Source of the DNA: Symbiodinium sp. CCMP2592
Lineage: Eukaryota > Sar > Dinophyceae > Suessiales > Symbiodiniaceae
Length of the DNA: 64,000 bases
Assembly (NCBI GenBank): GCA_905221615.1
Contig: CAJNDT010000990.1
Location: 124,001 to 188,000 of the forward strand
Reading direction: 5' to 3'
Part shown: positions 39,389-60,199 of the stretch, one piece after another
How the letters are laid out: each line of letters opens with the position of its first letter
Position numbering within the stretch: position 1 is the stretch's first letter
Notes under the pieces: model-generated
The model's database searches: none
Seen by the model: the letters and a program-made list of their open reading frames with translations, nothing else
What the model was told of the DNA's origin: nothing
Program-made: the position numbers and the translations under genes

Positions 39389-39436
39389 GGGTTGTGTTAA
39401 ATTATCCCTTGTATTTGCAGGAAGCTAGGAATGAAT

Positions 39437-39630
39437 TAAAAGGTGAATACAAGGTAAATAAAAGGTGGTCGCAAAAGGTGAATCAGGGCAGACCAAGACG
39501 AATGAAAGGTGAATAGACTGTGAATGAAAGGTGAATACAATGTGAATACAAGGTGAGTAAAAGGTGAATAAAAGGTGAATCGAGGCGAATGAAAGGTGGA
39601 AAAAAGGTGAAACAAAGGTGAACAAGACAT
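39437..39630. repeat. Left subterminal array of AAAGGTGAAT-like units
   Basis: About a dozen degenerate 10-12-base units (AAAGGTGAATA, AAAAGGTGAATC, GAATGAAAGGTG). The inverse orientation occurs at the other end of the unit. Confidence 0.85.
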
Positions 39631-39635
39631 AACCC

Positions 39636-39746
39636 AGAGACTCCAATATCCCTTAATTAAGGAATATTCCTTAAATTATAGTAGGATCCTTAATATAATT
39701 TGATTTAAGGTATATTCCCTAATTAAGGGATATTGGAGTCTCTGGT
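39636..39746. repeat. Palindromic element, family H, copy 3
   Basis: Near-perfect arms CAGAGACTCCAATATCCCTT and AAGGGATATTGGAGTCTCTG. It is inserted inside the 20.8-kb unit, so that unit has been resident while family H was active. Confidence 0.9.
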
Positions 39747-39749
39747 AAG

Positions 39750-57100: not shown

Positions 57101-59851
57101 AAGACGCTGCACCCCAGGAAAGAAACACGCATCGAGCAGAAGTGCCCGAATGTTTTCTGCTGTTGTGGCATCTAGAGCCCTCAATGGCGATGGAACCCGG
57201 AATCGAAGGAACAAACGAATTCCCTTCTCCACGTCTTCCAGGAGGAGCGCCAGCGTCACTTCTGTCTGCATGATTTTCGCTCTTCTGCTGTCGAGCTTGA
57301 CAGGAAGGGGTGTTTCGTCGTATCTGCGCTTCTCAAACACTGCAACGATCTTCATCGCATTTGCCCTCACGGCCGACAGGATTTCATCGAACATGCACTC
57401 AATCAGATACTTGCTTCCTTCCGTCACGACACAGGCCAAGCGGCGAACCCTGTATGAAATCTGTTGAGGACCTATCTGACACTTCTCACTGAGAGCTGAA
57501 AAGCTTGCAACTTTGCGTCCTGGGGCAAACAGCATGCGGTCCACAGTCTCACAATTGTCCTTCTCTCGAGGCTCAGGCAATGGGCGCCGGGTATTCATGG
57601 CCACTGAGCTCTGCATCGCCAATGTTTGCTGTAGAGAAGACCCGACTCCTGGCGCCAGCCGGTCTTCGGGTTGGGCAGCTGCTTCGAGTTCCCGCTGTCG
57701 AGGTGCCTCCTGCTCTGGCGCCGAAGGCTCTGGCTCTGGATTGCGTGGCACACGCATGTTCCGCTCATCCACGACACGCCAGAAAAGCTTACTGCCAGTC
57801 GGACGGCCCCTCTTAGATCGGATGGACATATCGCCTGGCCTTACTGCTCTGGCCTCATTGGCAGCTGCCGCTTCAGCTTCGTCCACAAGCCTTTGCCAAT
57901 TCTCTCCGAGATCAACATCTGCAGCGTCAGGCACTGCCGAAGTCTCTACCCCAGTGTCTTTGGGAGCATGGTCGGCTTCCAAACTTCTGGCACTCTCTGG
58001 CTGCGGAAGCCTAGTCTGCAAAAAGCGAGCCCAGTCATCGCCCTGTCCCAAGACTTCGCTTGCAGGGGCAGGCAGTCCTTCTTCCGCTTCTGACATGCAT
58101 GGCCTAAAAGCCTATGTTGACCAACATCAACTCAGATCGCCGGTGCTCACCACGAAGGCACAGCGTGTCGTATGTGGTAGTGTAACAAAGTGTCCTAAAT
58201 AATGTCCATGTGTCGCTATGCCATATGTTGATTGCATCAGCTTGAACACGACTCGCTTGCAAAAAAAGCCTTGCAGCTGGAGCCTGTCCTACTCAAGCTA
58301 CATGCCAGCAGCACCAGAAAGCGACTGATTTGACAGGACCATGGCCAATGTGCAGGCATTAAGCAAACATTGCATAGGATGCGACGAGTACTCACGCCGA
58401 CCACCCAGCAACCCAACCCACCACGCCCACAACCACTCGGGAGGGTGTGCAGGTAGGGGAGAGTGGGGTGGGGCGGGGACGTGGGATTGGAAGAGGGGTG
58501 GAAAGAAGGGAAGAAGCGAGGCACCCACGCTCGCACCCGCACCGGCATGGACGAACGCACGCACACACAAACCATCATGCACCCACATGCACCGACACAC
58601 GCATAGAAACACAAACCCTGCACAACCTGGTCAGCAGGGGGCACCTCTCTCTGTTCTGCTTGACCCAGATCTTGTTGTCTAGAAGGCACTCCACCACATG
58701 ATAGCCGGGCAGGCCCGCAAACTTGGCCGCCAATTCTGTCATGAACCTGGCCGCAAGGGATGTGTTTGTTGTTGTGACAAGAACGAGCGAACATGCTTGG
58801 CTTCAATGTCACAGGCACAGGCACTCACACGGTCTAGGTGCTATTACTGCTCTTAATTTTGGAATCTTTACCCTAGGCCCTAGGTTCTAGAGACTGCGGA
58901 TGCCCTGGTACAAGAAAGCCTGCAAAGCAAGCACCACGAGAGGGCGGCCTCTGTTTCGGAGATTCGCCGCTGGGCTCTCCTGAACCGAAGCCACCAACCT
59001 GCTCCATGATTGCAGCCTTCGGCTGCATTGCGTGAAGAAGATCAAGAGCCTCAGCAAAAGTCACCTGGAAGTCCGAATGATCTGCTGGGGAAGCCTCTTT
59101 AAAGCGCCCAACCCTTTGCTTGCTGAACGGAGGGCATGGGGTGCCGAAACATAGCAAATCCACATCGCCCGGAGCTTGCGGCAGAGGGCAACTACTGCAG
59201 TGTGGATGCAGCAAGCAACCTCTGTGCTTGGCTTGCTGTTCCATCGTACCGTAGAAGTGATCAATCACATCGCCGTGGTTGAGCAAAGCGTACTGCCGGT
59301 ACTTGTCACAAGGGTCGGAGCACGAGAGGCACACGAAGTTGATGCCGAGGTTCTGTTGAGGGATACAATAAACAACAACTTACAATGACTTGACTACAAT
59401 ACAATGGCAGCAATGGCAAACCAAACCCGTCCCCACTGCCCTGCGAAATGGGATACACTCAACCAGCTCAACCAGTGACTCCACTCGAGAGTCTAGCAGC
59501 ACTACGGCTACAGTTACAGATTGGATGGGCCCGCGCCTTCAGGACTGTGGCCTCTGCAAAACTGCATGTGCAACCAGAAACCAACTTCATTGGCTCTGAG
59601 AACTGCTTCAACACGCCCGGACGTGTCAGACCTTCTGCATGATGAACTAGCAGCTTTGCCCACCATGGGGCAGCATCCGGCAACGCATGGTTGTCATCTG
59701 CCGGTCCACTGCAGCTCGAGCACCCTTCGGCATCTTGTGTTGTCGAGAGAGCTCCGTCCGACTCTCGTCGCATGGCATCCACGTAAGAGGCCTGCTCTGC
59801 TGTTTTGTTGGCCTGCTGCAACAAGAGCTCGGTCAAAGCAGTCCAACTCAT
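48128..59851 (-). CDS. C5 cytosine-specific DNA methyltransferase
   Basis: Four exons, 59,851-59,537, 59,352-58,895, 58,746-58,627 and 48,665-48,128 (TGA), total 1,431 bases in one unbroken frame of 476 residues. Motif I: FSEPMKLVSGCTCSF (about 85-99). Motif IV with catalytic Cys near 178: GTPCPPFSKQ. Motif VI: MEQVGG near 222 (EQV for ENV). Motif VIII: KQNRER. C-terminal EHMMLQGHD and LRSMAGNGMSLPSLA correspond to motifs IX-X. It would methylate C5 of cytosine in DNA. Introns: 184 bases (GC-AG), 148 (GT-AG) and 9,961 (GT-AG). The last acceptor must be the AG at 48,666-48,667, not the CAG five bases upstream, to stay in frame. The N-terminus is uncertain: another coding-like frame (EIFQMYKAGSYDIHIRR) lies just upstream, to 59,945. 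It is the outermost gene at the right end of the unit. Confidence 0.85.
48770..50915. repeat. Tandem array of about ten 200-220-bp units with CACCTTTTTTT sub-repeats
   Basis: The unit CTCCTCTGGGTCCTAATATG...GAAACCTAGGGAAATCACC recurs starting near 49,009, 49,221, 49,441, 49,645, 49,853, 50,056, 50,267, 50,491 and 50,701, with a degenerate first copy at 48,872. Units differ mainly in carrying one to four copies of the 11-mer CACCTTTTTTT. The array is edged by CACCTTTTT words on the left (48,770) and AAAGGTGAA words on the right (50,828-50,915). It lies in the third intron of the methyltransferase gene. Confidence 0.95.
51476..51885 (-). CDS. Two candidate exons, unknown protein
   Basis: 51,885-about 51,812 reads YYFALLRADTFDQMDADFM then RNSVQ between an acceptor TTGCCAG and a GC donor. 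51,603-51,476 is open in two frames (RDIAGVILDVKQRKRCLE ends at a stop; NPTPGHLHTADGAWAARHR joins in phase with the first exon). Both lie in the methyltransferase intron, downstream of the large gene. TATAGT/CTATAG simple words fill the intron between them. Confidence 0.45.
52105..58096 (-). CDS. 1,756-residue DDE-like / AT-hook / HMG-box protein, candidate transposase
   Basis: Four exons: 58,096-55,468, 55,341-54,722, 54,549-54,013 and 53,589-52,105 (TAG), total 5,271 bases, in frame across all three joins. Layout: AT-hook-like KRGRPTGS (about 95-102); a region with D260 (RRYDETP), D346 (TTDRYGAN), a CDVH motif at 374-377 and E814 (IEAQHASIRR), spaced like an RNase H-fold DDE transposase with a C-H insertion; basic stretch RRRRGKRKRK (about 891-900); HMG box (about 912-965: AYRIWLAMEKKGN, ELCGRYGAEWRGMS); Cys cluster CCVCEGGAFQDAWLLH near 1,157; QKPSKR repeats and an RS-rich stretch in exon 4; C-terminal C-x5-C-x3-H-x3-C plus CxC-x3-H (about 1,660-1,709). 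Probably a nuclear DNA-binding recombinase (inference). The whole gene lies in the third intron of the methyltransferase gene, same strand. Confidence 0.7.
53600..53925. repeat. Intronic copy of the TAG/TAC repeat element
   Basis: Shares GAGCCCCTCTTTTTTCTG, the GGCCTGGCTAAGTGGAGCAG block, a TAC tract and GTGATCCAGGAAATGGC with 46,968-47,175. It occupies most of the 423-base intron between exons 3 and 4 of the 1,756-residue gene. Confidence 0.9.
58100..58626. other. First part of the methyltransferase third intron
   Basis: Begins GTTGTGCAGGG after the exon at 58,627. It contains a purine/pyrimidine-biased stretch near 58,440-58,520 and ACACAC words. The promoter of the nested 1,756-residue gene would have to lie here. 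No recognisable core element was seen. Confidence 0.4.
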
Positions 59852-59929
59852 GCCGCAGCTACCTGGGCTGCCTGCTTGAGAGGCTGCCTGCGAATATGGA
59901 TGTCATAACTACCAGCCTTGTACATCTGG

Positions 59930-60150
59930 AAGATCTCCTTTCCTTCACATACATCATCACCTTTTTTTACGTCTAGCATCACCTTCTTTTTACGTACATC
60001 ATCACCTTCTTTTTACGTCTCCCATCACCTTTTTTTTACGTACATCATCACCTTCTTTTTACGTCTCCCATCACCTTTGTTCTACGTCTTGTAATACCTT
60101 TCTTTTACCTTTGTCCTGGCACTATTGAATCACCTTTATTTCACCTTTTA
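59930..60150. repeat. Right subterminal array of CACCTTTTTTTACGT-like units
   Basis: Tandem units of roughly 40 bp (ACATCATCACCTTCTTTTT / ACGTCTCCCATCACC) grading into CACCTTT words and AAATTAAATTG. The orientation is opposite to the left array at 39,437. Confidence 0.88.
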
Positions 60151-60199
60151 AATTAAATTGGCTGCTCAACAGAATACAGGACGAGATTGTCACAACCCT

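Follow-up and report, generated by a model that had tools for sequence, protein, structure and literature searches.

A large DNA transposon family in Symbiodinium with a putative cytosine methyltransferase encoded in two halves around a transposase

Gene content, ends and target-site duplication

The window studied here, i.e., the whole stretch of 64,000 nucleotides that was analysed (C990:124001-188000; C-numbers denote contigs of the 1.098-Gb assembly), comes from Symbiodinium sp. CCMP2592, whose hybrid short- and long-read assembly is described under the name S. tridacnidorum in the accessible text of its report (PMC8045281). The window contains a unit of terminal inverted repeats (TIRs) that encodes, in this order on the minus strand, the N-terminal half of a C5 cytosine methyltransferase (N-half), a DDE-type transposase with an HMG-box-like C-terminal part, a third gene (gene 3) and the C-terminal half of the methyltransferase (C-half) (Table 1). 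The unit is real and is a member of a mobile family. A first-pass annotation of this DNA had proposed a TIR DNA transposon that carries a DDE-type protein and a C5 methyltransferase of its own, and this proposal is supported by right ends shared with other copies, by both ends of a copy in C3691 and by a recurring gene set. That annotation did not mention that the enzyme is in two pieces. Its observations that the genes share one strand and that the composition differs from the flanks hold: the likely coding open reading frames (ORFs) are all on the minus strand, and the G+C content (GC) is approximately 0.49-0.56 inside, with an AT-rich core of approximately 0.31, and 0.46-0.52 outside.

Table 1. 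Features of the unit, in window coordinates
Feature	Position	Strand	Remarks
Left copy of target-site duplication, CCCTAGGG	39384..39391	.	8 bp; nnnTAnnn form as at other copies
Whole element, TTGTG...CACAA	39392..60195	genes on -	20,804 bp; from end matches, right junctions elsewhere and C3691
Left subterminal array, AAGGTGA	39440..39622	+	approximately 11-bp spacing
Accessory ORFs 41277-42119, 41962-42990	41277..42990	-	no Pfam match above cut-off
Accessory ORFs 44128-44745, 44855-45697, 46072-46704	44128..46704	-	no function assigned by similarity
Methyltransferase C-half	48131..48727	-	target-recognition region, motifs IX (EHMMLQGH) and X (RQLRSMAGNG)
Central satellite	48762..50769	+	200-222-bp units with right-end motif TCACCTT(T)n; adjoins C-half exon
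Short central array of left-end motif AAGGTGA	50823..50925	+
Gene 3 (ORFs 53995-54549 and 52105-53589)	52105..54549	-	stop position conserved in 4/4 copies; no function assigned by similarity
HMG-box-like C-terminal part of transposase	54713..55408	-	separate exon here; Pfam HMG_box below cut-off
DDE-type transposase	55412..58096	-	895 codons open; D260, D346, C374-x-x-H377, E814
Methyltransferase N-half exon 3	58645..58746	-	motif VIII (QNRER)
Methyltransferase N-half exon 2	58949..59352	-	motifs IV (TPCPPFS) and VI (EQV)
Methyltransferase N-half exon 1	59537..59773	-	motif I region
Right subterminal array, TCACCTT	59955..60149	+	approximately 23-bp spacing
Right copy of target-site duplication, CCCTAGGG	60196..60203	.	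8 bp

The inverted ends reported at first pass are real: CCCTAGGGTTGTG is found at 39384-39396 on the plus strand and as its exact reverse complement at 60191-60203, with no other exact site in the window. When up to two mismatches are allowed, four sites occur where 1.94 are expected, an unremarkable number (four or more in 19 of 100 shuffles). The 150 bp outside both subterminal arrays share a 13-bp exact inverted match; none of 1000 dinucleotide shuffles attained this, and 30 of 1961 pairs drawn at random from real 150-bp flank zones did. Here, the match has the same offset (94 of 150) left and right. The TIR of the window copy consists of TTGTG only, or of 13 bp if the palindromic duplication is counted, with no significant extension. 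Since CCCTAGGG is its own reverse complement, the window alone is unable to choose between an 8-bp duplication and a 13-bp repeat, and the duplication was decided by C3691 and by the right ends of other copies, which show 8 bp. The C3691 copy spans 31,542 bp (left end 466705, right end 498246) and has 18-bp perfect inverted ends; GTTTAGGG precedes its left end and the same eight bases follow its right end. An 8-bp duplication is thus present in both copies with two ends read, namely, CCCTAGGG around the 20.8-kb element of the window and GTTTAGGG around the 31.5-kb element of C3691. Applying the C3691 rule, the window element runs from 39392 to 60195 with CCCTAGGG on each side, so that the 20.8-kb unit annotated as 39389..60198 stands with corrected bounds, and the TA taken for its outer flank is merely the middle of the 8-bp duplication. 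A TA duplication and a 13-bp terminal repeat without duplication were both ruled out by the right ends elsewhere and by C3691.

In a related family, the right ends of C1112, C3691, C2254 and C335 agree at 99-100% as far as CACAA, beyond which the copies continue into differing DNA, and C2254, C335 and an 89% copy, C4884, cease matching C1112 at the same base. The likeness of C3691 to C1112 runs nine bases further, which is the common target 8-mer GTTTAGGG plus one base, and C2254 and C335 share TCCTAGG past CACAA. CACAA is followed by GTTTAGGG in C1112 and C3691, by TCCTAGGT in C2254 and by TCCTAGGC in C335. The window-type right end recurs in C445 (72%) and C396 (74%), which retain TTGTCACAA, diverge after it, and continue past the end with CGCTAGAG and CTCTATCC, respectively. 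In all seven right junctions, TA occupies flank positions 4-5 (CACAA-nnnTAnnn). Inverted repeats (18 bp in C3691), a duplication of fixed length and copies whose right ends stop at the same base are properties of a class II element. Over the 11.2 kb compared, C3691 and C275 show 99.9% identity, suggesting that the element moved, or was duplicated, recently.

Some further observations concern these copies. TAGG stands mid-duplication in five of the seven right junctions and the genome is rich in TTTAGGG-like repeats; a target preference for such repeats is possible. The left end of the C1112 copy was not found in 2165001-2179000. This copy meets a 100-N assembly gap at 2174115-2174214, left of which the sequence is unlike the element's other copies, possibly owing to a scaffold misjoin or a truncation. 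No relatives were confirmed in the viral contigs and other genome contigs searched; a 14-mer end pattern occurred at 41 loci in viral contigs, as a pattern match alone.

Transposase, gene order and the two methyltransferase halves

The 895-aa transposase ORF shares 80% identity with P0001, a protein of Symbiodinium microadriaticum, and 40% with P0002, which represents a cluster of 15 sequences. P0001 runs on into the HMG-like exon of the window and P0002 ends after the HMG-like part. D260, D346, C374-D-V-H377 (a [C/D]xxH motif) and E814 are invariant in the three sequences. In the available part of PMC8230255, the RNase-H layout of transposases is described as one in which strand 5 and helix 4 are separated by an insertion domain and [C/D](2)H directly follows strand 5. 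The low-confidence AlphaFold models show three strands, a helix, strand 4 followed by D346, a helix, and strand 5 followed by CxxH, and then a long helical insert before the helix that carries E814; strand 5 was assigned in the first model only and not in the second. The protein appears to have the D...D...CxxH...E layout of a cut-and-paste transposase, and the order of the modelled elements would fit an RNase-H fold with an insertion domain. A transposase profile had no match among PDB sequences, and Pfam listed no transposase family at a maximum E of 10, with filters that drop most weak matches. A 1669-aa protein deposited for Symbiodinium sp. CCMP2592, P0003, is 100% identical over 96% of the ORF.

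The N-half, transposase, gene 3 and C-half lie in this order on one strand in all four copies compared. They are located at 542485-543205, 544968-547383, 549454-551228 and 554853-555344 in C1469; at 2193130-2192075, 2189856-2187868, 2186338-2184263 and 2178737-2178180 in C1112 (minus strand); and at 1206139-1205780, 1201894-1199261, 1198188-1196310 and 1194245-1193772 in C546 (minus strand). The window, C1469 and C1112 were read through, the N-half of C546 is known from a genome match alone, and the three relatives were picked from the top of the C-half list rather than at random. The proteins of the relatives are approximately 24-45% identical to those of the window, and the gene order is therefore old. 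In C3691, the two halves lie inside the proven ends, and the transposase is deduced from the likeness to C1112. When 30 C-half loci, the window and 29 others, were taken with flanks of 1.5 kb, gene 3 was within reach in two (C231 and C2502) and the transposase or the N-half in none. A nested insertion inside a methyltransferase gene was rejected, since the central junction of the unit has no inner inverted ends or duplication and the other copies conserve the gene order.

The methyltransferase (METHYLTRANSFERASE) consists of an N-half of three exons with motifs I-VIII before the transposase, and a target-recognition region with motifs IX-X approximately 10 kb after it. Exon 2 and the C-half alone scored 27 and 12.4 bits against Pfam PF00145, respectively; the joined halves formed one collinear domain (45.9 bits, E 6.9e-12, positions 59-313 of 324), and this single match includes motifs IV, VI (as EQV), VIII, IX and X of a C5 methyltransferase. 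EQV in place of ENV, with the Glu kept, and TPCPPFS are present in all three aligned N-halves. Judging from this conservation of catalytic motifs, selection for activity is likely. Exon 2 found weak matches to DNMT1 and the HhaI enzyme alone among PDB sequences (best E 0.015), and the C-half found nothing useful there. The joined sequence matched none of 5677 candidates from 5.8 billion proteins at E 1e-3, in a search whose length limit leaves out longer fusions like P0003.

Exon 2 has 112 genomic matches and the C-half at least 151 (150 of 269 candidates scored). Pairing used the 112 N-half matches and those 102 C-half matches that are listed down to E 6.8e-6; the C-half matches outside it score lower and mostly cover 75 residues of a 381-codon frame. 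Among the matches listed, 82 of the 112 N-halves are followed on their own strand by a C-half, no more than 45 kb downstream and at a median distance of 10.4 kb; 78 of these pairs lie 7.1-40.6 kb apart and four, of another architecture, 2.8 kb apart. Two pairs are in the wrong order or strand. One of the 78 wide pairs, that of C302, has its C-half in common with a 2.8-kb pair, and the four with the widest spacing (18.2-40.6 kb) may not represent one element each. Because near-identical copies are numerous among the pairs, the copies outnumber the underlying events. In the 2.8-kb set (C302, C2469, C4899 and C5130), the frames that hold the N-half are 487-629 codons long. There are also over 40 C-half matches of approximately 75 residues that have equal scores and are mostly in 381-codon frames. 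Both groups belong to other methyltransferase families, perhaps the known retrotransposon ones.

An alternative is that the methyltransferase is a host gene or a passenger useless to the element. The accessory genes to its left are poorly conserved, with genes past the C-half being hardly alike between copies; the 44855-45697 ORF has a weak match in C1469 (26%, E approximately 3e-5, or 0.30 with a low-complexity filter). However, N-halves that are only 29-45% identical to that of the window keep open frames (of the 112, one has a single stop and one has two), and the catalytic motifs are kept in the three aligned N-halves. We regard a host gene or useless passenger as very improbable.

The subterminal arrays are inverted relative to each other, as stated at first pass: AAGGTGA clusters run forward at 39440-39615 on the left and inverted at 59957-60141 on the right, and no cluster is present in the 1-39 kb flank. 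On the left, the first AAGGTGAA of the array stands at the same distance from the terminus as the last TTCACCTT does on the right. A middle pair of arrays at 48762-50925, which the first-pass annotation did not mention, contains inverted (48772-50692) and forward (50835-50902) clusters, and a 22-bp right-end stretch recurs at 21 of 22 bases in the units of the approximately 2-kb satellite beside the C-half exon. The C1112 stretch scanned contains 13 TGCATTT motifs, five clustered at the right end, four beside the C-half exon and four single elsewhere, and AATGCAA occurs within 400 bases inward twice at the C3691 left end and four times at the C1112 right end. Each family seems to have its own motif at equivalent places; the C1112 pattern was noticed after the fact, without a control, and two families are a small sample.

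The clusters in the window are ordered +,-,+,-, as would be the case if two separate elements (39.4-50.8 kb and 50.8-60.2 kb) lay side by side, each with a broken methyltransferase half. The GC of fourfold sites also differs, with 526/1031 (0.51) on the right (52.1-59.8 kb, including the N-half) and 410/654 (0.63) on the left (41.3-48.7 kb, including the C-half; p 2.8e-6, with a grouping chosen after inspection), a difference that exists despite the conserved gene order. Nevertheless, the central junction has no inverted terminus, three distant copies keep the order of the N-half, DDE, gene 3 and C-half, the halves are at least 7 kb apart in the 78 wide pairs, and C1112 likewise repeats its own right-end motif beside the C-half. 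Two neighbouring elements are largely refuted by the gene order of the other copies, and this explanation was rejected as having hardly any chance of being right.

Two other repeats were noted in and near the unit. A hairpin repeat (CCAGAGACTCCAATATCCCTTAATTAAGG...) at 39634-39745, near the left end, recurs at 61725-61823 in the right flank (approximately 85% alike) and is a dispersed repeat resembling miniature inverted-repeat transposable elements. The other, a short repeat that combines a TAC microsatellite with a hairpin, is present at 46969-47176 and 53652-53913 (97-98% alike in ungapped parts), one copy on each side of the central array in the same orientation. An Rfam scan found nothing at the gathering score.

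Possible union of the halves and action on the element

The exon boundaries give some indication of how the halves might become one enzyme. N-half exon 3 ends in AG/GT in the window, AG/GC in C1112 and AG/GA in C1469 (where the DNA was deduced from three frames), all in phase 2 as read. GT, GC and GA donors are typical of dinoflagellates, and a donor-like AG/G at the end of exon 3 in all three copies suggests onward splicing. The C-half acceptor is AG/G in phase 0 in all four copies as read, with other acceptors possible. Given a phase 2 donor and a phase 0 acceptor, the halves could belong to one gene only if an exon of 3k+1 bases connected them. The leading options are one spliced gene with the other genes nested in its intron, or a two-subunit enzyme.

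The latter option, in which the halves are two polypeptides that assemble into a naturally split methyltransferase whose activity needs the complete element, agrees with the wide spacing within the 78 pairs, with the transposase having its own ATG in the window and C1112, and with gene 3 having its own conserved stop in all four copies. Natural split C5 enzymes exist, for example, M.AquI. The donor-like ends of exon 3 in three of three copies (GT, GC, GA) suggest onward splicing instead, and no start codon is conserved in the aligned C-halves; we hold two polypeptides to be possible but unlikely. It is more doubtful still that the halves are kept apart on purpose, such that activity arises only with a full-length element (from two subunits or by splicing across the transposase), internally deleted parasites are unable to produce it, and the arrays beside the ends and the C-half target it to its own family.

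P0003 fuses the DDE part, the HMG-like part, gene 3 and the C-half, and would thus suit a polyprotein with the methyltransferase halves at its ends and the transposase and gene 3 between them. It is without the N-half, however, and bypasses the part of gene 3 in which the conserved end and the stop codon lie; its linking exon was not found in C1469, C1112 or C546, and the relative P0002 stops after the HMG-like part. The gene 3 stop lies three to four codons past an EP in all four copies, with no shared donor, and P0003 running from gene 3 into the C-half is therefore probably wrong there. The gene model of P0003 is probably an artefact, and we consider a polyprotein improbable.

Taken together, we think it probable, with some room for doubt, that the window element belongs to an old and diverse dinoflagellate family of large cut-and-paste DNA transposons whose methyltransferase halves are joined and act on the element's DNA. 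In this scheme, the DDE protein, aided by its HMG-like tail, would bind the ends and subterminal arrays and move the element. The halves would be united most likely by splicing over an intron of approximately 10 kb that houses the transposase and gene 3, and less likely as two polypeptides or by trans-splicing. The united enzyme would act on the element's own DNA, with the arrays as natural docking sites, to control or protect transposition. Our best guess is that array-directed methylation of the element's own DNA regulates or protects transposition; hypothetically, methylation could also mark or hide copies of the element, as suggested at first pass.

Several results weigh against this interpretation. 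The AlphaFold predictions on three-sequence alignments were poor in both runs (mean predicted local distance difference test scores of 33.6 and 33.9), and scores of approximately 34 are too low for a fold claim; Foldseek against PDB gave no significant match, with an unrelated complex at rank 1 and Hermes (E 0.11) and RAG1 (E 0.12) at ranks 2 and 3, neither of them significant. The connecting exon of 3k+1 bases was looked for and not found, motif VIII is a weak match in C1469 and C1112 (E 0.24 and 0.47), and among the matches listed no partner exists for 30 of the 112 N-halves or for 21 of the 102 C-halves. Past the first eight bases, and apart from the arrays, the two window ends resemble each other no better than shuffled sequences do (738 of 2000 equally good), so that the inverted repeat proper of this copy is short. 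The search for further copies that the first-pass annotation called for succeeded in part, with the right end found elsewhere, related-family copies ending at one base and both ends read in C3691; no second copy with both window-type ends was found, with no genome-wide left-end result behind that, and no element genes are present within approximately 30 kb upstream of the window-type right ends of C445 and C396. Finally, the CpG observed/expected ratio is 0.74 in the unit versus 0.61 and 0.59 in the flanks, and the AT-rich core alone is depleted (0.25). Since the unit as a whole shows no CpG depletion, these ratios do not point to heavy CpG self-methylation; the enzyme may have a target context other than CpG, or it may methylate only rarely.

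Comparison with known systems

The literature searched, which did not extend to subscription papers and Repbase, yielded no paper on this element or on any methyltransferase whose halves flank a transposase. DNA methylation is usually seen as a host weapon against transposons; here, a DNA transposon family has kept an apparent methylation-writing enzyme over deep divergence, in two halves around its transposase. The idea that transposons use the writing, and not only the erasing, of cytosine methylation is testable now. The family is also a possible new source of split methyltransferases, and P0003 suggests that at least one deposited gene model fuses pieces of the element into an artificial gene.

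Among the DNA transposons, hAT elements have the terminal bases YARNG, and nnnTAnnn is the Buster form of their duplication. The window end, TTGTG, has T as its second base and does not fit YARNG. The 8-bp target duplication of C3691 and the window is a feature of hAT elements (Ac, Hermes, Buster) according to the accessible text of PMC4763223. Short inverted ends with subterminal repeats are a further likeness to hAT. A DDE catalytic set in which CxxH follows strand 5 and precedes an insertion domain may be another, as judged here from a poor model. Unlike hAT, the element is much larger, carries a methyltransferase and has an HMG-like tail, and Pfam listed no hAT dimerisation domain in three members at a maximum E of 10, where HMMER filters drop most matches above approximately 0.1. 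CACTA/EnSpm elements have CACT(A/G) termini and a 2-3-bp duplication, in contrast to TTGTG and 8 bp here. Maverick/Polinton elements are similar in size and inverted ends, whereas Pfam named no polymerase, capsid or retroviral-type integrase among the ORFs of the unit that were scanned.

In agreement with the first-pass annotation, Pfam named no reverse transcriptase in the 17 proteins scanned (13 ORFs of the unit, the joined methyltransferase, P0003 and two flank ORFs). SymbioLINE-Dnmt and SymbioDIRS-Dnmt3, as described in the available part of PMC5890265, are likewise mobile, multicopy carriers of a C5 methyltransferase in the same genus; for SymbioDIRS-Dnmt3, that work made use of yeast. 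Their methyltransferases are intronless and lie beside a reverse transcriptase, whereas the one here is split into exons, interrupted by genes and associated with a DDE transposase; SymbioLINE-Dnmt elements are described there as CpG-poor, and the window unit is not.

Two further systems link class II elements to cytosine modification. VANDALs, Mutator-like elements (MuDR, according to PMC12730594) with degenerate inverted repeats, have family-specific short motifs in non-coding tandem arrays tied to the control of DNA methylation, and the arrays of the window and C1112 are reminiscent of the VANC target arrays, as far as these are described in the available part of PMC10398659. VANC removes methylation, whereas the elements here combine a methyltransferase with precise 8-bp duplications. 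Fungal DNA transposons with TET/JBP dioxygenases (Kojima 2025, PMC12730594) are likewise class II elements that carry a cytosine-modifying enzyme; those enzymes, in the portion of that report available, oxidise methylcytosine, whereas the class of enzyme encoded here writes it.

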